Assembly: GCA_016190945.1 (NCBI GenBank)
Contig: JACPPO010000146.1
Location: forward strand, 1-51,435
Length of the DNA: 51,435 bases
Reading direction: 5' to 3'
DNA from: Acidobacteriota bacterium
GTDB lineage: Bacteria; Acidobacteriota; Vicinamibacteria; Vicinamibacterales; UBA2999
In this document: in pieces, positions 40,448-51,181 of the stretch
How the letters are laid out: every line of letters starts with the position of its first letter
Position numbering within the stretch: position 1 is the stretch's first letter
Program-made: the position numbers and the translations under genes
The notes under the pieces: generated by a model
The model's input: only the letters and a program-made list of their open reading frames with translations
Told to the model about the DNA's origin: nothing
Database searches by the model: none

Positions 40448-40475
40448 TTGACAGCCGCAGAACCTCTGCGATACA
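40448..40475 (+). promoter_or_regulatory. Promoter of the aromatic amino acid operon
   Basis: A perfect TTGACA (40448-40453), 16-bp spacer and GATACA (40470-40475), or TACAGT at 40473. The start would be about 40482, giving a very short 5' leader before the peptide ATG at 40497. Confidence 0.65.
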
Positions 40476-40496
40476 GTCAGTCCAGTCTTCACGCTC

Positions 40497-40589
40497 ATGC
40501 CGCATCGCTTTAGCTTTTTCCCGTCGCCGAGCTACGCCAGCTACTGGTGGTGGTATCGGACTGCGACTGAAGGGGCGGCCGGCGTCTAA
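40497..40589 (+). CDS. Aromatic (Phe/Tyr/Trp) leader peptide
   Basis: A 30-codon ORF beginning MPHRFSFFPSPS and continuing YASYWWWYRTA to TAA. It holds three Phe, three Tyr and three consecutive Trp codons. It lies between a strong promoter and an intrinsic terminator directly before aroDE-trp-aroQ-aroF-tyrA, an operon serving all three amino acids. By the known logic of leader peptides, stalling at Phe, Tyr or Trp codons would favour read-through. No Shine-Dalgarno is clear. Confidence 0.85.
   Translation: MPHRFSFFPSPSYASYWWWYRTATEGAAGV
40567..40577 (+). promoter_or_regulatory. Antiterminator arm of the aromatic attenuator
   Basis: CTGAAGGGGCG, just 10 bp after the Trp/Tyr codon run, pairs over 11 bp (one G-U) with CGCCTCTTCAG at 40619-40629, the 5' arm of the terminator. 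A weak competing hairpin is GTCGC (40523-40527) with GCGAC (40563-40567). Confidence 0.65.
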
Positions 40590-40617
40590 GACCCGCACGA
40601 CGAACTGAGCCTATACG

Positions 40618-40658
40618 ACGCCTCTTCAGCCCCTGGTTGAAGAGGCGTTCTTGTTTTT
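40618..40658 (+). terminator. Intrinsic terminator of the aromatic attenuator
   Basis: ACGCCTCTTCA (40618-40628) and TGAAGAGGCGT (40638-40648) form a perfect 11-bp stem with a 9-nt loop, then a T-rich tract to 40658, ending at the aroDE ATG (40659). Confidence 0.9.
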
Positions 40659-42140
40659 ATGACCCATTCGCTGCTATGCGAAACGGTGACCGGCGACACC
40701 ATGGCCGAGCTGACCGCGGCGCGCGGACGTGCGGCGGCGGCTGACATGGTGGAGTTGCGCCTTGATGGCGTGAGGGATCTCGACGTGGCGCAGGCGCTCC
40801 ACGGCCGGCGCGCCCCGGTCGTCGTCACGTGCCGCCCGGCCTGGGAGGGGGGTCGATTTGACGGCAGCGAGGAGGAGCGGCGCGCTGTGCTGGCGAGGGC
40901 GCTGACGCTTGGGGCTGAATACGTGGACCTCGAATGGCGGGCTGGGTTCGACGATCTCGTCCGCGCGAACGGCTCGAGAGTCGTCGTCTCGTCCCATGAT
41001 TTTGCCGGCGTGCCGGACGACCTCTCCTCGCGAGCGCGGGCGATGCGGAGCACGGGCGCAGCGGTGATTAAGGTGGCGGTGACCGCGGCGCGGCTCTCCG
41101 ACACGCTGCCGCTGCTCGAGATCGCGAAGGGTGGCGACGCCGTGGTAATCGGCATGGGTGAGGCCGGCGTGCCGACGCGGCTCCTGGCCTCGCGATTCGG
41201 ATCGCGATGGACGTATGGAGGCGACGCCGTTGCGCCAGGCCAGATACCGACTACCCGCATGGTGGAACAGTTTCGGTTTCGAGCGGTTGGCGCAAGTACC
41301 GCACTGTACGGGGTCGTCGGCGGTAACGTGATGCAGTCGGTGTCTCCGGCTATGCACAACGCCGCGTTTGCCGCGGCCGGACTGGACGCGGTGTACGTGC
41401 CGCTGCGTGCGGCGGATTTTGCCGACTTCCTCGTCTTCGCCGATGCACTGGGCATCTCCGGTGCCAGCGTAACGATCCCGTTCAAGCTCGCCGCGCTGAC
41501 CGCATCGGTGAGTTCCGACGACCTGGCGTGCAGGGCTGGCGCGGCGAACACGATCCGGCGGGTTCACAGCGGGTGGGAGGCGACCAACACGGATATAGCC
41601 GGCTTCCTCGAGCCGCTGGATGCCGTCTGGGGCGCCGACGCTCCGGAGGCGGGGGCGGACCTGAAGGTTCGCCCCTACGCAAGCGTGCGCTTCTCAGTCC
41701 TTGGGGCCGGCGGCGCCTCGCGGGCGGTCATCGTGGCGCTCACGTCGAGAGGCGCCCGAATCACCGTGCATGCGCGCCGCCAGGATCAGGCACAGGAGGT
41801 GGCCGCGTCAACGGGCGTCGAGGCAGGGCCGTGGCCTCCCGCCGCGCGGTCGTGGGACGTGCTCGTCAACTGCACGCCGCTCGGAGGTGCGTCCGCGCCC
41901 GATGCGTCGCCGCTACCGGGCGGGCCGTTCGACGGCCGTCTCGTGTACGACCTGACCTACCGGCCCGGGGAGTCGCTCCTGGTTCGAGAGGCTCGCCGCG
42001 CCGGCCTCCGGACGCTTGATGGCCTGCCGATGCTCGTGGCGCAGGCCGAGCGGCAGTTCGCGTGGTGGACGGGGCGGCGCCCCGCGCGGGGTGTGATGCA
42101 GGCGGCCGCTCTCGCTGAGACAAGCCACAGAGGCGACTGA
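40659..42140 (+). CDS. aroDE: Fused 3-dehydroquinate dehydratase (type I) and shikimate dehydrogenase
   Basis: Catalyses steps three and four of the shikimate pathway in one 493-residue chain, the arrangement known from plants. AroD half, about 1-215: ADMVELRLDGVRDL, His in VVVSSHDF (about 112) and Schiff-base Lys in AAVIKVAVTA (about 137). AroE half, about 220-493: VMQSVSPAMHNAAF, Lys in SVTIPFKLAALT (about 275), GAANTI, NTDIAGF and the NADP loop FSVLGAGGASRAVI. A palindromic repeat encodes extra residues ahead of that loop. No separate ribosome site is evident beyond the T tract. The stop overlaps trpE by one base. Confidence 0.92.
   Translation: MTHSLLCETVTGDTMAELTAARGRAAAADMVELRLDGVRDLDVAQALHGRRAPVVVTCRPAWEGGRFDGSEEERRAVLARALTLGAEYVDLEWRAGFDDLVRANGSRVVVSSHDFAGVPDDLSSRARAMRSTGAAVIKVAVTAARLSDTLPLLEIAKGGDAVVIGMGEAGVPTRLLASRFGSRWTYGGDAVAPGQIPTTRMVEQFRFRAVGASTALYGVVGGNVMQSVSPAMHNAAFAAAGLDAVYVPLRAADFADFLVFADALGISGASVTIPFKLAALTASVSSDDLACRAGAANTIRRVHSGWEATNTDIAGFLEPLDAVWGADAPEAGADLKVRPYASVRFSVLGAGGASRAVIVALTSRGARITVHARRQDQAQEVAASTGVEAGPWPPAARSWDVLVNCTPLGGASAPDASPLPGGPFDGRLVYDLTYRPGESLLVREARRAGLRTLDGLPMLVAQAERQFAWWTGRRPARGVMQAAALAETSHRGD
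41652..41675. repeat. Palindromic insert within aroDE
   Basis: GGGGCGGACC and GGTTCGCCCC form a 10-bp stem (one G-U) with TGAA loop, in frame. It encodes AGADLKVRPYA between the AroE halves, where related proteins are shorter. Confidence 0.55.
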
Positions 42141-43606
42141 TGCACATCACCACGTTCGAGCAGTTTCGGGATCTGGCCCAGCGCGGCACGTTCGTGCCGG
42201 TCTACAAGGAGATCGTGGCCGACCTCCTGACCCCGGTCTCTGCCTTCCTGAAGATCGCGGAGCACTCCGATTACGCCTTCCTGCTCGAATCGGTCGAGGG
42301 CGGCGAGCAGGTTGGGCGCTACTCGTTTCTTGGCAAGGACCCGTTTCTGATCCTGCGATCGCGTGGCGGCAAGACGATCGTCGATCGTGCCGGCCAGACG
42401 TCCGAATCCGACAGGCCGTTCGTGTCGGCGCTCCGCGAGCTGATGACAGGCTTTCATTCGCCCTTTGTGCCTGGCCTGCCGCGATTCACCGGGGGCGCGG
42501 TCGGATATCTCGGCTACGACGCCGCGGCGTGGTTCGAGCCCGTGACGCTCCAGCCGGCAACCGAGGTCGAGGATGAAGCGGGTTTCATGCTGTTCGACAC
42601 CGTGCTCGCCTTCGACCACGTGCGGCACCGGATCCTGATCATCGCCAATGCGCGTATTACCGGTGATGAGGATCTCGAGTCGCTCTACCAGTTCGCGCGC
42701 GCGAAGATCGAGTTCGTCGAGCGGGAACTAGAGCGAACGCTGTCGAGAGCCGCGCCCGCTCAGCGTCAGCCGCTCGATATCGTGTCGAACGTCACCCGCG
42801 ACGAGTTCGAGCGGGGGGTTCGCACTGCCAAGGAATACATCGGAGCCGGTGACATCTACCAGGTTGTCTTGTCGCAGCGATTCGAGACGCGGTTCGACGC
42901 GGACCCCTTCACGGCGTACCGCGCGCTCCGCCATGTGAATCCGTCGCCGTACATGTATTTCCTCCGCATGGGCGGCCGGGCCATCGTCGGGTCATCCCCC
43001 GAGATGCTCGTGCGAGTGGAAGGGCGGTCGATGCAGACGCATCCGATTGCCGGGACGCGTCCCCGCGGCCGCACGGAGGAAGAGGATCTGCGCCTCGCGG
43101 AGGAGTTGAAGCGCAGCGAGAAGGAGCGAGCCGAGCACGTCATGCTCGTGGATCTCGGTCGCAACGACTTGGGCCGAGTGGCCGCGTACGGCACCGTGAA
43201 GGTGCCGACCTATATGACGCTCGAGCGGTACTCCCCCGTCATGCACCTGGTGTCGATCGTCGAAGGGCGCCTCTCGGACGAGCACGATCGGCTCGATGCG
43301 CTGGTGGCGTGCTTTCCGGCCGGCACCGTGTCTGGTGCGCCGAAGGTGCGCGCCATGGAAATCATTGCCGAGCTCGAGAACCGCCGGCGTGGCGTGTATG
43401 CCGGGGCGGTTGGCTACCTCGATTTCGCCGGCAACCTCGATTTCTGCATCACGATTCGTACAGTCGTCATTGAGCACCGCCGCGCCTACGTACAGGCCGG
43501 CGCGGGCATCGTGGCGGATTCGAACCCGACGGCCGAGTACGAGGAGACGCGCGATAAGGCACGCGCCATGATTCAGGCGCTGGAACTGGCGCAACAGGGT
43601 CTGTGA
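42140..43606 (+). CDS. trpE: Anthranilate synthase component I
   Basis: Converts chorismate and ammonia to anthranilate. The N-terminal feedback site LLESVEGGEQVGRYSFLG and the catalytic blocks HPIAGTRPRGRTEEEDL, HVMLVDLGRNDLGRV, FPAGTVSGAPKVRAMEI and AGAGIVADSNPTAEYEE are intact. 488 residues. The Ser-containing LLES element is that which binds Trp in regulated enzymes, so feedback by Trp is likely in addition to attenuation. Confidence 0.95.
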   Translation: MHITTFEQFRDLAQRGTFVPVYKEIVADLLTPVSAFLKIAEHSDYAFLLESVEGGEQVGRYSFLGKDPFLILRSRGGKTIVDRAGQTSESDRPFVSALRELMTGFHSPFVPGLPRFTGGAVGYLGYDAAAWFEPVTLQPATEVEDEAGFMLFDTVLAFDHVRHRILIIANARITGDEDLESLYQFARAKIEFVERELERTLSRAAPAQRQPLDIVSNVTRDEFERGVRTAKEYIGAGDIYQVVLSQRFETRFDADPFTAYRALRHVNPSPYMYFLRMGGRAIVGSSPEMLVRVEGRSMQTHPIAGTRPRGRTEEEDLRLAEELKRSEKERAEHVMLVDLGRNDLGRVAAYGTVKVPTYMTLERYSPVMHLVSIVEGRLSDEHDRLDALVACFPAGTVSGAPKVRAMEIIAELENRRRGVYAGAVGYLDFAGNLDFCITIRTVVIEHRRAYVQAGAGIVADSNPTAEYEETRDKARAMIQALELAQQGL

Positions 43607-43703: not shown

Positions 43704-44270
43704 ATGGTACTGGTGATCGATAACTACGACTCGTTTACCTACAACCTCGTGCAGTATCTCGGCGAGCTGGGCGCGGAGATCCGCGTGCATCGCAACGACG
43801 CGGTGACACTGGACCAGGTGGCTGCGATGCAGCCCGACCGGATCGTCATTTCGCCCGGTCCCGGCCGGCCGGAGGATGCGGGGGTGACGGTTGACGTCAT
43901 CCGCCGGTTTGGACCAACGACCCCGATTCTCGGAGTCTGCCTCGGGCATCAGGCGATTGGCGTGGTCTACGGCGGTACCGTGTGCCGCGCGAAGACGCCG
44001 ATGCATGGCAAGACGTCCACCATCATGCACGATGGCAAGGGCGTCTTCAGGGGGATTGGCGAACCCTTCCAGGCCGGCCGCTACCATTCGCTGATCATCG
44101 CCAGCGGCGACGTGCCGGCCGACCTCGAGGTCGCGGCGCGGACGCGCGAGGAGGGCATCATCATGGCCGTGCGTCACCGGACGTACCCGGTGCACGGCGT
44201 GCAGTTTCATCCCGAGTCGGTGCTGACCGACGAAGGGCGACGGATTCTGCAGAATTTCCTGGACTTGTGA
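43704..44270 (+). CDS. trpG: Anthranilate synthase component II, glutamine amidotransferase
   Basis: Supplies ammonia from glutamine to TrpE. Class I amidotransferase: VLVIDNYDSFTYNLVQYLGE, nucleophile Cys in LGVCLGHQAIG (about residue 80), and His-Glu in GVQFHPESVLTDEG. 188 residues. Can also serve folate synthesis in some bacteria. The stop overlaps trpD by one base. Confidence 0.95.
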   Translation: MVLVIDNYDSFTYNLVQYLGELGAEIRVHRNDAVTLDQVAAMQPDRIVISPGPGRPEDAGVTVDVIRRFGPTTPILGVCLGHQAIGVVYGGTVCRAKTPMHGKTSTIMHDGKGVFRGIGEPFQAGRYHSLIIASGDVPADLEVAARTREEGIIMAVRHRTYPVHGVQFHPESVLTDEGRRILQNFLDL

Positions 44271-45292
44271 TGTTCACGGAGCTGCTCGAGAAGGTCGTGC
44301 GTCACGAGGACCTCACCGCAGACGAGGCGGCCGGCGCCATGCGCGAGGTGATGGAGGGACGCGCTCCCGCAGCGTCGCTCGCGGCGCTGCTCCTGGGGCT
44401 CGTGATGAAGGGCGAGCGGCCTGCCGAGATCGTGGGGTTTGCGCGGACGATGCGTGAGCAGGCGGTGAAGCTGTCGGCGCCGGCCGGTGACGTCTTCGAC
44501 ACGTGCGGCACGGGCGGCGATCGGTCCGGCACGTTCAACATCTCGTCCGCGGCAGCACTCGTCGTGGCCGCTTGCGGCGTGAAGGTGGCCAAGCACGGGA
44601 ACCGCTCCGTGTCGAGCCGGTGCGGCAGTGCCGACGTGTTCGAGCAGCTCGGCGTGAACATCGCGGCGGCGCCGGCGGTGGTGGAGCGGGCACTCCACGA
44701 CGCCAACATCGCTTTCTTCTTCGCGCCGACATTTCATCCGTCGATGAAGCATGCGGCTCAGACACGGCGCGAGCTTGGCATCCGCACGGCGTTCAACCTG
44801 CTCGGGCCGCTGACCAACCCCGCCGGTGCGCGGCGGCAGATTGTCGGCGTGCCGCGGCCGGAGCTCACCGAACTGCTGTCCCGCTCGCTGCTGATGCTCG
44901 GGTCGGACCGCGCGTGGGTGGTCCACGGCGCGGATGGCATCGACGAGATCTCGACGACAGGGTACACGAAGGTCTCGGAATGCCGCGCCGGCGCGGTGAA
45001 CACCTTCTACATCCATCCGGCCGATTTCGGGCTCTCGAAGGCGACGCCGGCTGATCTCCAGGGCGGGGACGCGGCGCGGAATGCCGCTATCGTGCTGGAG
45101 ATTCTCGGTGGCACGCGCGGCGCTCCGCGCGACGTGGTGCTCCTCAATGCCGGTGCCGCTCTGTTCGTGGCCGGCCGTGCTGCCAGCGTGAGCGAGGGGA
45201 TCGCTCGTGCCGCCGAGGCCATTGATACCGGCGCCGCGCACGCGACGCTCGATGGAATGGCGCGGAGCTCCCACGCGGAGGCTGCCGTATGA
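44270..45292 (+). CDS. trpD: Anthranilate phosphoribosyltransferase
   Basis: Transfers phosphoribose from PRPP to anthranilate. [17 protein letters not shown] and [20 protein letters not shown] are the PRPP and anthranilate sites; [19 protein letters not shown] is family-typical. 340 residues from ATG 44270 (TGATG overlap with trpG). The longer open frame upstream is in trpG. Overlaps trpC by 4 bp. Confidence 0.95.
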
Positions 45293-46086
45293 CCGGCGCG
45301 CCGGACCTCCTGGGCACGATTGTCGCGGCCACTCAGCGCGTCATCGAGGTGCGGCGCGAGCGAGAACCGGCGGTGACGTTGGAGAAGCGGGCCGCCGCCG
45401 CGTTACCATCCGGTGCCAGATTCGAACGGGAGCTGGGGGCGGCCGGGCGCGTGAACGTCATCGGCGAGTGCAAGAGGCGGTCGCCGTCAAGAGGCGTGCT
45501 CGCGGCGGAATACGATCCCGCGTCGATCGCGCGGCTCTACGAGCGTGGTGGCGCCGCGGCGATTTCGGTCCTCACGGAGCCGACGTTCTTTGACGGGGCG
45601 CTCGAGCATCTGACGGCCGTGCGGCGCGCTGTTTCTCTGCCGTTGCTCCGCAAGGACTTTATCGTCGACGACTACCAGCTGTTCGAGGCGCGCGCCGCCG
45701 GTGCCGACGCGATCCTGCTGATCGTGGCGGCGCTCGAGCAGCCCGACCTGGTGCGGCTGCAGGCCCGCGCGTGGGAACTTGGCCTCGCCGCGCTGGTCGA
45801 GGTGCATGACGAAGAGGAGTTGACCCGCGCCGTCGACAGCGGCGCGCGCCTGATAGGCGTCAACAATCGAAACCTCCGCACGCTGCAGGTGGACATCGAC
45901 GCGTCATACCGCCTGGGCGCCAGGATTCCACCCGGAGTCATCGGGGTGAGCGAGAGCGGCCTCCGGTCGCGTGCGGATCTCGAGCGTCTCGCCGCAGCCG
46001 GATATCGCGCATTTCTGATCGGTGAACGGTTCATGACGGACGTGGATCCCGCACGTTCGATCGGCGAGCTGACCAGATGTTCCTGA
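45289..46086 (+). CDS. trpC: Indole-3-glycerol-phosphate synthase
   Basis: Closes the indole ring. TIM barrel with catalytic Lys in [16 protein letters not shown] and [16 protein letters not shown], plus [14 protein letters not shown] and [17 protein letters not shown]. 265 residues. Overlaps trpD (ATGA) and trpF (10 bp). Stand-alone, not fused to TrpF as in enteric bacteria. Confidence 0.95.
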
Positions 46087-46694
46087 AGGTTTGCGGGATT
46101 ACCCGGCTCTCGGATGCGCTCCATGCCGTCGAACATGGCGCCGGTGCGCTGGGCTTCGTGTTCTGGCCGCAGAGCCCCAGGTATATCAGCCCGGAGCGCG
46201 CCGCCGAGATCATCGCGGCGCTCCCCCCTGACGTGGACGCGGTCGGCGTGTTCGTGAACGAGTCTGTGGACGGCATCAGGGCGGTGGTCGCCAAGACCGG
46301 TATCGGCGTTATCCAGTTGCACGGCGACGAGACGCCCGCATACGCGGACAAACTGGGCTGGCCGGTGCTGAGGGCCATTACGGTCGAGCAGGCGGAACAG
46401 GCGGCTGTCGCCTGGCCGCCGGAGACGATCTTTCTGATGGACTCGGTGGACCCGGCCCGGCGCGGCGGCACCGGCTCCACTCTCGATTGGCGGCAGGCGG
46501 CGTCGGCGGCGCGCGGCCGGCGCGTCGTGCTGGCGGGCGGATTGACGCCGGACAATGTGGCCGAGGCGATTGGCACGGTACGGCCGTTCGGCGTGGACGT
46601 GTCGTCGGGCGTTGAGGATGCACCCGGTGTGAAGAATCCGGACAAGGTGGCGCGCTTTCTGACGCGCGCGCGGAGTGCATTTGACAAACACTAA
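46077..46694 (+). CDS. trpF: Phosphoribosylanthranilate isomerase
   Basis: Amadori rearrangement of PRA to CdRP. The catalytic Cys is in [13 protein letters not shown], and Asp in [36 protein letters not shown] is also present. 205 residues. It overlaps the longest trpB reading frame by 20 bp. Confidence 0.94.
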
Positions 46695-47952
46695 GTCGGC
46701 GAAGGGGGTCAGACCCTATGACACGACTCGACTCATGGGGTCTGACCCTCCTGTGTTCGGGCGGCGTGACCCGGATGCACGCGGGTACTTCGGCGCCTAC
46801 GGCGGCCGTTTTGTGCCCGAGACGCTCGTTGCGCCGATCGAGGAGCTCACGGCGGGCTACCTCGCCGCGCGCGCCGACGCGGTGTTTCGCGACGAACTGG
46901 ACGGCCTGCTGAAGCACTACGTCGGCCGCCCGACGCCACTCTACGAAACGCGCCGGCTGGCAGGCGATCTGGGTCGAAAGGGGCGCATCCGTATCCTCCT
47001 GAAGCGCGAGGACCTGACGCACACCGGCGCCCACCAGATCAACAACGCACTCGGGCAGGCGCTGCTCGCAAAGCGCATGGGCAAGCGGCGTGTCGTCGCT
47101 GAGACCGGCGCGGGCCAGCATGGCGTGGCGACGGCCACCGCGTGTGCGCTGCTCGGCCTCGACTGCTGCGTCTACATGGGGGCGGAGGACATGCGGCGCC
47201 AGGCGCTGAACGTCGTCCGCATGCGGCTGCTTGGCGCGGACGTGCGCCAAGTGGACGCCGGCAGCCGCACGCTGAAGGACGCGATCAACGAAGCCATGCG
47301 CGACTGGGTGGCCAACGTGACGGACACTTATTATCTGCTCGGCTCCGCGCTTGGCCCGCATCCGTATCCGCTGATGGTGCGCGAGTTTCAGTCGGTCATC
47401 GGCCGCGAGGCGCGGAGCCAAACGCTCGACCAGGTCGGACGTCTCCCGGACATTGTCGTGGCGTGCGTCGGCGGCGGCAGCAATGCGATGGGGATCTTTG
47501 ACGGCTTCCTGGACGATAAAGACGTGCGGCTCATCGGCGTCGAGGCGGGCGGCGAGCGGATCGCGCCGGGCCGACACGCGGCACGCTTCGCCGGCGGCAG
47601 TACGGGCGTGCTCCAGGGCACCCGCACCTTCATCTTGCAGGACGAAGCGGGCAACATCGAATTGACACACTCCATTTCGGCGGGTCTCGATTACGCGGCC
47701 GTCGGGCCCGAGCATGCCTGGCTACGGGACCTCGGGCGCACCGAGTACGCTCACGTGTCCGACGCCGAAGCGCTCGAAGGGTTTCAGACGCTCGCGCGGC
47801 TTGAGGGCATCCTTCCGGCGCTCGAGTCGGCGCATGCGATTGCGTACACGATGAAGCTTGTGCGCGACGTGGCGGACGGTACCATCATCCTGATCAACCT
47901 CTCGGGACGCGGCGACAAAGACGTCCAGAGCGTCGTCGAGGCGCTTCGATGA
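46675..47952 (+). CDS. trpB: Tryptophan synthase beta chain, catalytic Lys replaced by Gln
   Basis: PLP enzyme that joins indole and serine. The family is certain: [68 protein letters not shown] and [16 protein letters not shown]. But the motif that is normally HTGAHK, whose Lys binds PLP, reads HTGAHQ (codon CAG at 47035-47037, residue 121 of this frame). As read, the protein should lack the Schiff-base Lys. This may be a real mutation or a sequence error (AAG to CAG). Start is either GTG 46675 or ATG 46735; a palindromic repeat lies between. Confidence 0.93.
46704..46750. repeat. GGGGTCAGACCC-type palindromic pair at the trpB start
   Basis: AGGGGGTCAGACCCTATG at 46704 and CATGGGGTCTGACCCT ending at 46750 are inverted copies; each is itself a near-palindrome. 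The element lies in the trpF-trpB junction and supplies the second possible trpB start. Confidence 0.65.
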
Positions 47953-48827
47953 CGCGGCCTTGGGCACCGGGACGGTCCGCTAATGCGGACCGCCCAGCTA
48001 GCGCTGGCTTGTCGGGTCGCACAGCGACCCGACTTGGGCGAAGGCGGCTGGCCGCCACGTTCGCTCGCATCCGCGCCGGCAATATTGGTCCCGGCCTCGT
48101 GACCTACGTGACCGCGGGCGACCCTGACCTGCCGCGGACGGAGGGCATCCTGCGTGCCCTCGACCGCGCCGGCGCCGACGTGATCGAGGTCGGCGTCCCG
48201 TTTTCGGACCCCCTTGCGGACGGCCCCGTCATCCAGCGCGCCACCGAGCGCGCACTGGCCTCGGGCACGACGCTCGCCGGCGTCCTCGACATGGTCCGGC
48301 GCTTACGAGCCGACCTGCGCGCGCCGATAGTCATATTCAGCTACGCGAACCCAATTCTGCGGCTTGGCGCGGAGCGATTTGCCGACCAGGCGCGCGACGC
48401 CGGCGTCGATGGTGTGCTCGTCCTGGACCTCCCAATCGAGGAAGCGGACCAGTTCCGGGCGCTCGTGGCATCGCGGGGGATTGATACAATTCTCCTGCTC
48501 AGCCCGACGACGAGCGACGAGCGTCTGCGGCGGGCCGCGTCCCTCGGCAGTGGCTTTCTGTATGCAATCTCGCGGCTCGGTGTAACCGGAGCCCGCGACG
48601 CCATCGCGGATGGCGCTGAGGAGATGGTCCGACGGATCAGGGCCGTCAGCTCCCTGCCCATCGCCCTCGGGTTTGGCATCTCGAAGCCGGAACACGTGCG
48701 CGAAGTGGGGCAGTGGGCGGATGCCGCCGTGGTCGGCAGCGCGCTGGTCAACGTCATCGCTGACGCGGGCGCGTCACTCGATCTCAATACGCGGGTAGAG
48801 GAGTATGTGCGGTGGCTGAAGTCCTGA
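47949..48827 (+). CDS. trpA: Tryptophan synthase alpha chain with repeat-encoded N-terminal extension
   Basis: Cleaves indole-3-glycerol phosphate to indole for TrpB. Catalytic Glu and Asp lie in [36 protein letters not shown] and [13 protein letters not shown] are typical. The enzyme proper starts at about residue 36 ([20 protein letters not shown]). The preceding residues ([20 protein letters not shown]) are encoded by a palindromic repeat also found at 29225-29290. 292 residues; ATG overlaps the trpB stop (ATGA). Confidence 0.93.
47970..48047. repeat. Triple-hairpin palindromic repeat, copy 2, inside trpA
   Basis: Three palindromes in a row: GGTCCGC-taat-GCGGACC, CCAGC-tagc-GCTGG and GTCGGGTCGC-aca-GCGACCCGAC. 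It is the inverted copy of 29225-29290 and is read in frame as the N-terminal extension of trpA. Confidence 0.75.
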
Positions 48828-49135
48828 CGAACATCGAGGAGCTGCGCGGCCGGATCGACGTCGTCGACGATCAGCTCGTGCGTCTGCTGAACGTGCGGGT
48901 GGCGTGCGCCGTAGAGGTCGGCCGGCTGAAACACGAGGCCGGGCTGCCGATTTACCAACCCGAGCGCGAGGCGCAGGTGTTGAACAAAGTCAGGAAGTCG
49001 GCGACCGAGCTGTCCGGCCCGCTGACGGCCGAGGCGCTCGTCCGGATTTTCGAGCGCATCATTGACGAAGCGCGGCGCGCGGAACGTGCCGCCAGCGTCC
49101 GCGGAGACGGGCTCGGGCCGTCCATCGGCGAATGA
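48812..49135 (+). CDS. aroQ: Chorismate mutase, AroQ class
   Basis: Rearranges chorismate to prephenate, the entry to Phe and Tyr. A helical 107-residue protein with LRGRIDVVDDQLVRLLNVRV, Lys in EVGRLKHEAG and Glu in YQPEREAQVLNKV, the active-site set of AroQ enzymes. GTG start overlaps trpA by 16 bp. The Ser/Gly-rich tail after residue 95 is probably disordered. Confidence 0.9.
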   Translation: MAEVLTNIEELRGRIDVVDDQLVRLLNVRVACAVEVGRLKHEAGLPIYQPEREAQVLNKVRKSATELSGPLTAEALVRIFERIIDEARRAERAASVRGDGLGPSIGE

Positions 49136-49178: not shown

Positions 49179-50225
49179 ATGATCGTTGTGATGAAAGAGC
49201 GGGCCACTGAGGCGCAGGTCGACTCGGTCATCGCCCGTCTCATTGAGCTGGGGATGGACGTTCACCGATCGTCCGGCGCGACGCGGACCGTGCTCGGGGT
49301 GGTCGGCGCCGGCAAGGTGGACAAGGAGATGATCGAGATTCTCGAGGGCGTCCACGAGGTGATGCGCATCTCCGAGCCGTACAAGCGCGCGAGCCGCAGC
49401 TACAAACCCGAGGACACCATCGTCACAATTGACGACGTGCGGATCGGGGGCGATGAGGTCATCGTCATGGCCGGGCCTTGCTCGGCGGAGACCGAGGAGC
49501 AGTGCCAGGCGTCGGCGGCCGCCGTCAAGCGTGCCGGAGCCAAGGTGCTGCGCGGCGGGGCGTTCAAGCCGCGCAGCTCCCCGTACAGCTTTCAGGGTCA
49601 CGGTGAACCGGGCCTGCAGATGCTGCGGCACGCGGCCGATGCGCACAACCTCAAGCTGATCTCTGAAGTCATGGACGCCAGCCAGATTGAGCTCATCGCC
49701 AAGTACTGCGACATCTTCCAGGTCGGCGCCCGCAATATGCAGAACTACACGCTGCTGCGCGAGCTGGGTCATGCGCGTAAGCCGGTGCTCCTGAAGCGCG
49801 GTATCTCGGCCACCATCGAAGAGTGGCTGCTGTCGGCCGAGTACATCCTGGACGGCGGCAACAACGACGTCATCCTCTGCGAGCGTGGCATCCGGACGTT
49901 CGAGACCGCGACGCGGAATACGTTTGACATTTCGGCGATCCCGGTCGTCAAGAAGCTGAGCCATCTCCCGGTGATCGCGGATCCCAGCCACGGCGCCGGC
50001 CGGCGCGACATGGTGGCGCAGCTGGCGCGCGCCGCGGTTGCGGCGGGCGCCGACGGCCTTCTCATCGAAGTGCACAACGATCCGGACCGCGCGCTGAGCG
50101 ACGGGGCGCAGTCGATGTTCCCGTCGCAATTCGATCGTCTGATGGCGGAGCTGCGGATCATCGCCCCGGCGATCGGGCGCAGCATCTGCCTCGAGGCTGC
50201 CGCTCGCCGTGGGTGGGCGCGATAA
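49179..50225 (+). CDS. aroF: DAHP synthase, type I beta, with N-terminal regulatory domain
   Basis: Condenses phosphoenolpyruvate and erythrose 4-phosphate, the first shikimate step. The barrel has [65 protein letters not shown] and [13 protein letters not shown]. The first 85 residues ([20 protein letters not shown]) form the ferredoxin-like domain that gives feedback control by Tyr or Phe in the Thermotoga-type enzymes. 348 residues. Follows aroQ by 43 bp; chorismate mutase and DAHP synthase often interact. Confidence 0.94.
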
Positions 50226-50244
50226 AACGCCCGCGGCTCGCGAA

Positions 50245-50312
50245 GCCCCCAAATCCCAATGACCAAGTCCCAACGTGGGTTCGGGTCTTAGGATTTGGAT
50301 CTTGGGATTTGA
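50245..50312. repeat. Heptad CCCAAAT inverted repeat between DAHP synthase and tyrA
   Basis: Left arm CCCAAAT CCCAATG, then ACCAAGT, CCCAACG; right arm units TAGGATT, TGGATCT, TGGGATT. Both arms keep a strict 7-bp period and are complementary around GTGGGTTCGGG. Confidence 0.7.
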
Positions 50313-50314
50313 CG

Positions 50315-51181
50315 ATGTCCCCACCGGATTCTCCCGTTTTCCCAAGGGTCGCGATTGTCGGTCTTGGGCTGATCGGCGGGTCGATTGCTTTTGGCGCCCG
50401 CCGCGCGTGGCCTTCGACGCATGTGGTCGCGATCGATCGGGAACCGGTCGTTCGCGCGGCGCTCTCGCGCCGCGCCATCGACGCCGCGGCGGACGACCTG
50501 GCCTCCGTCGCCGACGCCGATCTGATTGTGCTGGCCGCACCCGTGCGCCAGAACATTGCCCTTCTCCGGCGCGTTGCCGCCTATGCCTCCACCTCAGCGG
50601 TGATCACGGATGTCGGCGGTACCAAGCGAGCGATTGTCGCCGCAGCGGCGGCGCTCTCCGAACGGGTCACCTTTGTTGGCGGCCATCCGATTGGCGGCGG
50701 CGCGCGCGGCGGGTTCGAATTTGCCACGGCAAGCCTGTTCGCGCGCCGGCCCTGGATCTTCACGCCCCACAACGCAGCAGGTTCCAACGCTATACGCCGC
50801 TTGTCCGCTTTCGTCACCGGCCTTGGCGCCCAGCCGGCGACGATGGACGCGGCCGAGCACGACCGGTTGATGGCGCTGATCAGCCACCTCCCACAACTGA
50901 CGGCCACCGCGCTGATGGAGGTGGTCGGTGGGGCGGCAACCGCCGGCGGATTGCGAATGGCGGGTCAGGGACTGGTTGACACTACTCGCCTCGCGTCCAG
51001 TCCCGCCGACGTCTGGCGGGACGTCTGCGTCACCAACGCGGACGAGATCGGCAACGCGCTCGACCTGCTGATCGAGCGGCTGTCGGAGATGCGGAGCGAC
51101 CTGCGGCGCGCCGAGATCATCGACTCTGTTTTTGACGACGCCGCGCGCTGGCGCGCGCAGCTCATGAAGGGGAGGGATTAG
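50315..51181 (+). CDS. tyrA: Prephenate dehydrogenase
   Basis: Oxidises prephenate to 4-hydroxyphenylpyruvate for Tyr. NAD-binding VAIVGLGLIGGSIAFGARR at the N-terminus, substrate loop VGGHPIGGGARGGFEFA, and the helical LISHLPQLTATALMEVV region are visible. 288 residues from ATG 50315; the longer frame runs back into a heptad repeat. There is no ACT domain. Last gene of the operon; no pheA (prephenate dehydratase) is in view. Confidence 0.9.
   Translation: MSPPDSPVFPRVAIVGLGLIGGSIAFGARRAWPSTHVVAIDREPVVRAALSRRAIDAAADDLASVADADLIVLAAPVRQNIALLRRVAAYASTSAVITDVGGTKRAIVAAAAALSERVTFVGGHPIGGGARGGFEFATASLFARRPWIFTPHNAAGSNAIRRLSAFVTGLGAQPATMDAAEHDRLMALISHLPQLTATALMEVVGGAATAGGLRMAGQGLVDTTRLASSPADVWRDVCVTNADEIGNALDLLIERLSEMRSDLRRAEIIDSVFDDAARWRAQLMKGRD

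Follow-up and report, generated by a model that had tools for sequence, protein, structure and literature searches.

Leaders of the thr and ilv operons carry several kinds of control codon in one peptide and sense Thr/Ile or Ile/Leu/Val, while the gamma-proteobacterial pheA and pheST leaders sense Phe only and precede single-branch operons. In other bacteria, trp genes are controlled by T-box and TRAP attenuators. Leader-peptide attenuators of trp operons are described for Escherichia coli (trpL), Corynebacterium and Streptomyces (PMC1262725, which also names a pheST leader), and in theory the sensitivity of such a leader should fall when its fraction of regulatory codons is low (PMC1183508). 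As regards larger aromatic operons, a 2005 survey reports putative, database-derived attenuators before some tyrA supraoperons and the use of TRAP by the Bacillus trp/aro supraoperon; its attenuation section names neither a leader peptide nor a sensed amino acid, nor does it refer to Acidobacteria (PMC1173090). A search of the open-access literature found neither mixed aromatic control codons nor an earlier description of the element reported here.

In the draft genome of an Acidobacteriota bacterium of the order Vicinamibacterales (contig JACPPO010000146.1; “the window” hereafter denotes the whole analysed stretch of 51,435 nucleotides), the operon aroDE-trpEGDCFBA-chorismate mutase-DAHP synthase-tyrA is preceded by what is, judged from sequence comparison and folding, very probably a ribosome-mediated transcription attenuator with Trp and Tyr as its main signals (Table 1). 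Like trpL and other trp attenuators, it has a leader open reading frame with UGG repeats and alternative antiterminator and terminator hairpins ahead of trp genes. Unlike them, it mixes in Tyr and often Phe codons, and its operon adds aroDE, chorismate mutase, DAHP synthase and tyrA. With the thr and ilv leaders it shares the principle that a single peptide bears control codons for more than one end product of its operon, yet here these codons are aromatic, as they are in the Phe-only pheA and pheST leaders of single-branch operons. The combination of trp genes with common-pathway genes and tyrA resembles the aromatic supraoperons mentioned above (Bacillus trp/aro, tyrA supraoperons), but a leader peptide is predicted where Bacillus uses TRAP. 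The initial annotation had set this leader apart from classical single-amino-acid leaders, a distinction that stands against trp and pheA leaders but has to be narrowed in view of the several-codon thr and ilv leaders. If our reading is right, a mixed-codon aromatic leader is conserved along with a whole operon across an Acidobacteriota order whose regulation has been little studied.

Table 1. Predicted regulatory elements and genes of the aromatic amino acid operon in the window
Feature	Position	Strand	Basis
Promoter-like site TTGACA-18-TACAGT	40448..40477	+	Shuffled controls; recurs ahead of leaders in relatives
Predicted leader peptide ORF, 30 codons + TAA	40497..40589	+	Homologous ORF in nearly all genomes of the order
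Phe-Ser-Phe-Phe codons, possible Phe control codons	40509..40520	+	Phe at one column in 15/18 near relatives
Putative Tyr/Trp control run YASYWWWY	40533..40556	+	Trp in 74/74 genera, Tyr in 66/74
Predicted antiterminator 5' arm CTGAAGGGGCG	40567..40577	+	Covariation with terminator 5' half
Predicted terminator stem-loop; 5' half (core 40620-40629) doubles as antiterminator 3' arm	40617..40649	+	Folding, covariation
T-rich terminator tail CTTGTTTTTA, abuts aroDE start codon	40650..40658	+	Sequence
aroDE, fused type I dehydroquinate dehydratase + shikimate dehydrogenase	40659..42140	+	Protein families
trpE	42140..43606	+	Protein family
trpG	43704..44270	+	Protein family
trpD	44270..45292	+	Protein family
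trpC	45289..46086	+	Protein family
trpF	46077..46694	+	Protein family
trpB	46675..47952	+	Protein family
trpA	47949..48827	+	Protein family
Chorismate mutase (type II)	48812..49135	+	Protein families
DAHP synthase	49179..50225	+	Protein families
tyrA, prephenate dehydrogenase; last cluster gene in window	50213..51181	+	Protein family

The promoter, 30-codon reading frame, terminator and antiterminator arm that had been noted from the letters alone were all recovered at their positions by sequence inspection, folding and shuffling, and the RNA folding proposed at that stage as a check did return the terminator hairpin (energy z = -2.5, equal stability in 1 of 200 shuffles). The promoter-like site occurs once in the window as against 0.1 times expected from shuffles, and a TTGACA box with 17-18 nt spacing lies 5' of the leader at a score of at least 9 in 89 of 123 relatives vs 4 of 123 shuffled sequences. 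The predicted peptide, MPHRFSFFPSPSYASYWWWYRTATEGAAGV*, has aromatic residues at F5, F7, F8, Y13, Y16, W17-19 and Y20; across all six frames, only two runs in the window hold six or more aromatic codons out of eight, the leader and one elsewhere (shuffle mean 0.1). The antiterminator arm begins 10 nt past the Trp/Tyr run and can pair with CGCCTCTTCAG (40619-40629) in the 5' half of the terminator at 11 positions, one of them G-U, and the terminator stem itself comprises 15 pairs. An end-product codon run in a short reading frame, an intrinsic terminator before the first gene and a mutually exclusive antiterminator, three defining features of a leader-peptide attenuator, are found together. In the window (40478-40499) and the homologous regions, a median of 16 nt separates the predicted -10 box from the leader start codon, which is preceded by a Shine-Dalgarno-like motif in only 7 of 112 genomes. 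With so short a 5' untranslated region, mostly devoid of a Shine-Dalgarno motif, the leader mRNA may be nearly leaderless. Of note, an AAGAGG in the 3' half of the terminator (window 40640-40661) could be the aroDE ribosome-binding site, hidden upon termination; its spacing to aroDE is not kept in relatives.

We compared upstream regions from 129 genomes in the order Vicinamibacterales. A covariance model built from 32 of these regions matched 143 of 162 genomes of the order (the 32 doing so by construction), nearly always once and adjoining aroDE, and the reading frame, its codon content and the stop position are kept over the order. Both helices, which exclude one another, covary: the antiterminator is paired in 92.8% of cells, with 19 double-changed cells vs 5.2 in shuffles, and the terminator in 99.4%, with 15 vs 4.3 (0 of 500 shuffles as high in either case), counts that are inflated by the relatedness of the genomes. 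When the partners were slid by one to three columns, the signal was gone. Changes from GAAGAGG to GGAGAGG to GAGGGGG touch all three strands and occur in separate families. The proposal was to be given up if close relatives turned out to have lost the codon run or the pairing; on examination across the order, it withstood this test. We consider it very improbable that the terminator is an ordinary one whose leader peptide has no function, or that it belongs to a translation-independent RNA switch (T-box, riboswitch or RNA-binding protein). Other kinds of attenuator, T-box and TRAP, do control trp genes elsewhere, but the order-wide conservation of frame, codon content and stop position speaks against such a switch here, as does the result of an Rfam search, in which Trp_leader, other leader families and T-box gave no match at the gathering threshold or at E values up to 10.

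Outside the order, matches to the covariance model are weak or partial, and we rejected them as instances of the same element, several being plain terminators or leaders of another operon. The best of them, from other Acidobacteriota (L292, L293 and L295), are clear Trp leaders with a terminator ahead of a trpB homologue, followed in L292 by a DAHP synthase homologue, and their runs are of the WWWY or WWWC type (SWWWYRR, NWWWCTH, GWWWCAG). It is tempting to speculate that Tyr and Phe codons were added to the leader while the operon grew.

The placement of the codons relative to the helices fits a ribosome-mediated mechanism. Usually, 7-13 nt separate the last Trp codon from the antiterminator arm, and the stop codon begins 14-24 nt downstream of the arm's first nucleotide. 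When transcripts ending with the terminator 5' half were folded under a 27-nt ribosome mask, the antiterminator probability was about zero for ribosome positions from two codons before the arm to the usual stop position and averaged 0.54-0.70 further upstream. For the window it came to 0.69-0.88 with the ribosome at the Trp codons, 0.35-0.999 at the three Tyr codons and 0.999 at the Phe codons, values that, as an equilibrium picture of a kinetic process in which the ribosome-free RNA of the window already scores 0.85, back the geometry rather than the quantities. As far as geometry and mask folding go, a ribosome at the stop codon masks the antiterminator arm and one at the control codons leaves it free. 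An unhindered ribosome would reach the leader stop and cover the arm (40567-40577), so that the terminator (40617-40658) forms and the operon is switched off. A shortage of charged tRNA-Trp or tRNA-Tyr would hold the ribosome on the Y..YWWWY codons, its leading edge stopping right before the arm; the arm, left free, would then pair with the terminator 5' half, and transcription would proceed into aroDE and the genes behind it as far as tyrA. Trp and Tyr would be the main signals in this scheme, to which the early Phe codons may add a weaker Phe input in the window's family. Leader translation, stalling, read-through and the ranking of signals are what we infer from these data, efficient translation of the leader being assumed.

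Codon statistics, drawn from 74 genera of 14 families with each genus represented by a single genome, are in line with this assignment of signals. They omit five genomes with mis-anchored arms (G018, G039, G137, G156 and G155), of which the first four show the aromatic run by eye and the last contributed its leader to the geometry set. Trp accounts for 46% and Tyr for 12% of codons -9 to -5 ahead of the arm, compared with 0.8% and 1.9% in the operon genes, and the genus counts for the two residues given in Table 1 refer to the last 15 codons. The placement of Tyr shifts among leaders (WWWY, WYWYW, WWYW, WWSYYGF) and both TAT and TAC are used; relative to the operon genes of the window, leader Tyr and Phe codons lean to TAT and TTT. 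It is conceivable, yet improbable in our estimate, that Trp codons alone are regulatory, with Tyr and Phe carried along for reasons of decoding speed or RNA structure: Trp is the sole residue present in every genus, WWWY and WWWC leaders precede the trpB homologue in other Acidobacteriota, and the TGGTAT and TGGTGG hexamers overlap RNA-structure constraints. However, Tyr reaches six times its background, does so at shifting positions and with both of its codons, and the operon holds tyrA. The predicted leaders of nearly all genera support Trp and Tyr as signals, the two amino acids to which the trp genes and tyrA of the operon are dedicated. Taken together, the order-wide conservation, the two covarying helices, the position of the stop codon and the Trp/Tyr codons make attenuation that senses Trp and Tyr well supported.

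The gene content of the operon bears on the question of which amino acids it serves. Representatives of every family sampled share the same gene order downstream of aroDE; in a few, chorismate mutase, DAHP synthase or tyrA escaped detection. A gene for prephenate dehydratase (pheA, PF00800) was never found in or beside the operon, being unlinked in every genome of the order in which both could be located; in the window's own genome, which is 78% complete, no pheA was found. Since the operon includes the trp genes and tyrA and pheA is unlinked, its dedicated end products are Trp and Tyr, and Phe is served only via the common pathway and prephenate. The initial annotation had the operon making shikimate intermediates, Trp and the Tyr/Phe precursor; with tyrA as its last gene, the operon goes past that precursor, and it does so without pheA.

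Whether Phe is a third signal, such that a shortage of Phe, Tyr or Trp each usefully relieves termination, is less clear. That one peptide senses all three amino acids had been proposed from the window alone, and while attenuation, Trp and Tyr are borne out by conservation, covariation and geometry, Phe is plausible, being enriched about two-fold, though unevenly and with pheA unlinked. Phe amounts to 6.3% over the 28 codons before the arm, whereas operon genes contain 3.1% and the alternative frames 2.4-2.7%, and at least one Phe lies within these codons in 66 of 74 genera vs 41 of 74 in each other frame (P about 6e-6, Fisher's test, uncorrected for relatedness). The enrichment is thus frame-specific. 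In the window's family, Phe occurs near the peptide start, where one column is conserved (Table 1), and in f13 (SWFWFIYF, YWWWFFYF), f14 and part of f15 it sits within the control run itself. Besides, a ribosome placed on the Phe codons of the window gives an antiterminator probability close to one in the folding described above, and most pheA upstream regions checked are without an attenuator of their own. On the other hand, Phe is unevenly distributed, being at about background level or lower in several families (f4, f10, f12), and pheA is never in the operon. In G085, a member of the window's family, pheA even has its own Phe leader, the operon leader there having a WYWYW run. Furthermore, in the window the Phe codons sit near the peptide start, 15 or more codons ahead of the arm, and a stall there may work less well than one at the run. 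On balance, one leader integrating all three aromatic shortages, with Phe at the peptide start or within the run depending on the family, is a serious possibility that we rate at somewhat below an even chance. If true, a single RNA would do, order-wide, what model bacteria do with separate controls for trp, tyr and phe. The natural series of runs (WWWY, WYWYW, WWYYF, WFWFIYF) offers a way to test how signals from several amino acids are weighed at one stall site.

Alternatively, the Phe codons seen in the window's family could be a by-product of a pyrimidine-rich protector strand that pairs with the purine-rich arm. The minimum-energy fold of the window does contain such a protector (1:2) hairpin, in which CUUUAG from the Phe stretch pairs with CUGAAG of the arm, and stretches like TTTAGCCCCTTC recur in near relatives. 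Across 73 genera, however, the complementarity between leader start and arm was close to that of codon-shuffled controls (mean z 0.35; P<0.05 in 10 of 73). A protector hairpin conserved among the leaders was accordingly not recovered, a point that also counts against the attenuation model. In addition, Phe is enriched outside the best complementary stretch as well (6.2% vs 3.1% in genes), and a structural by-product would sit uneasily with the reading-frame specificity of the enrichment. We therefore do not favour this explanation and regard it as rather unlikely.

Attenuators of pheA were considered as a general home of Phe control and rejected as such, for among 19 further pheA upstream regions a clear Phe leader was seen in G085 only, the other exception being a Val-rich leader in G015. 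The separate Phe leader of G085, MRLRAFPFVFTFAGFTAAREAV*, lies with a terminator upstream of pheA (L323, G085:C194, about 413-545). Attenuator-like leaders that are Val- or Thr/Val-rich (MLRNASVHVRSAGVVFGFVGVVVLVVRPTG, MTFRPILSSFVTVVVTVTGITAMPVQQLRMF) were noticed upstream of pheA in G015 (L260 and L327) and G061 (L253). Finally, genus g162 yielded Leu/Val-type leaders with a terminator, MTRPAILLLLVLVLVLVTQGAN (L297) and MTRTTILLLLVLVLVLVTQGAN (L298), and the gene that follows them begins with MPIERSEWIWIDDQWK and presumably encodes a branched-chain aminotransferase.
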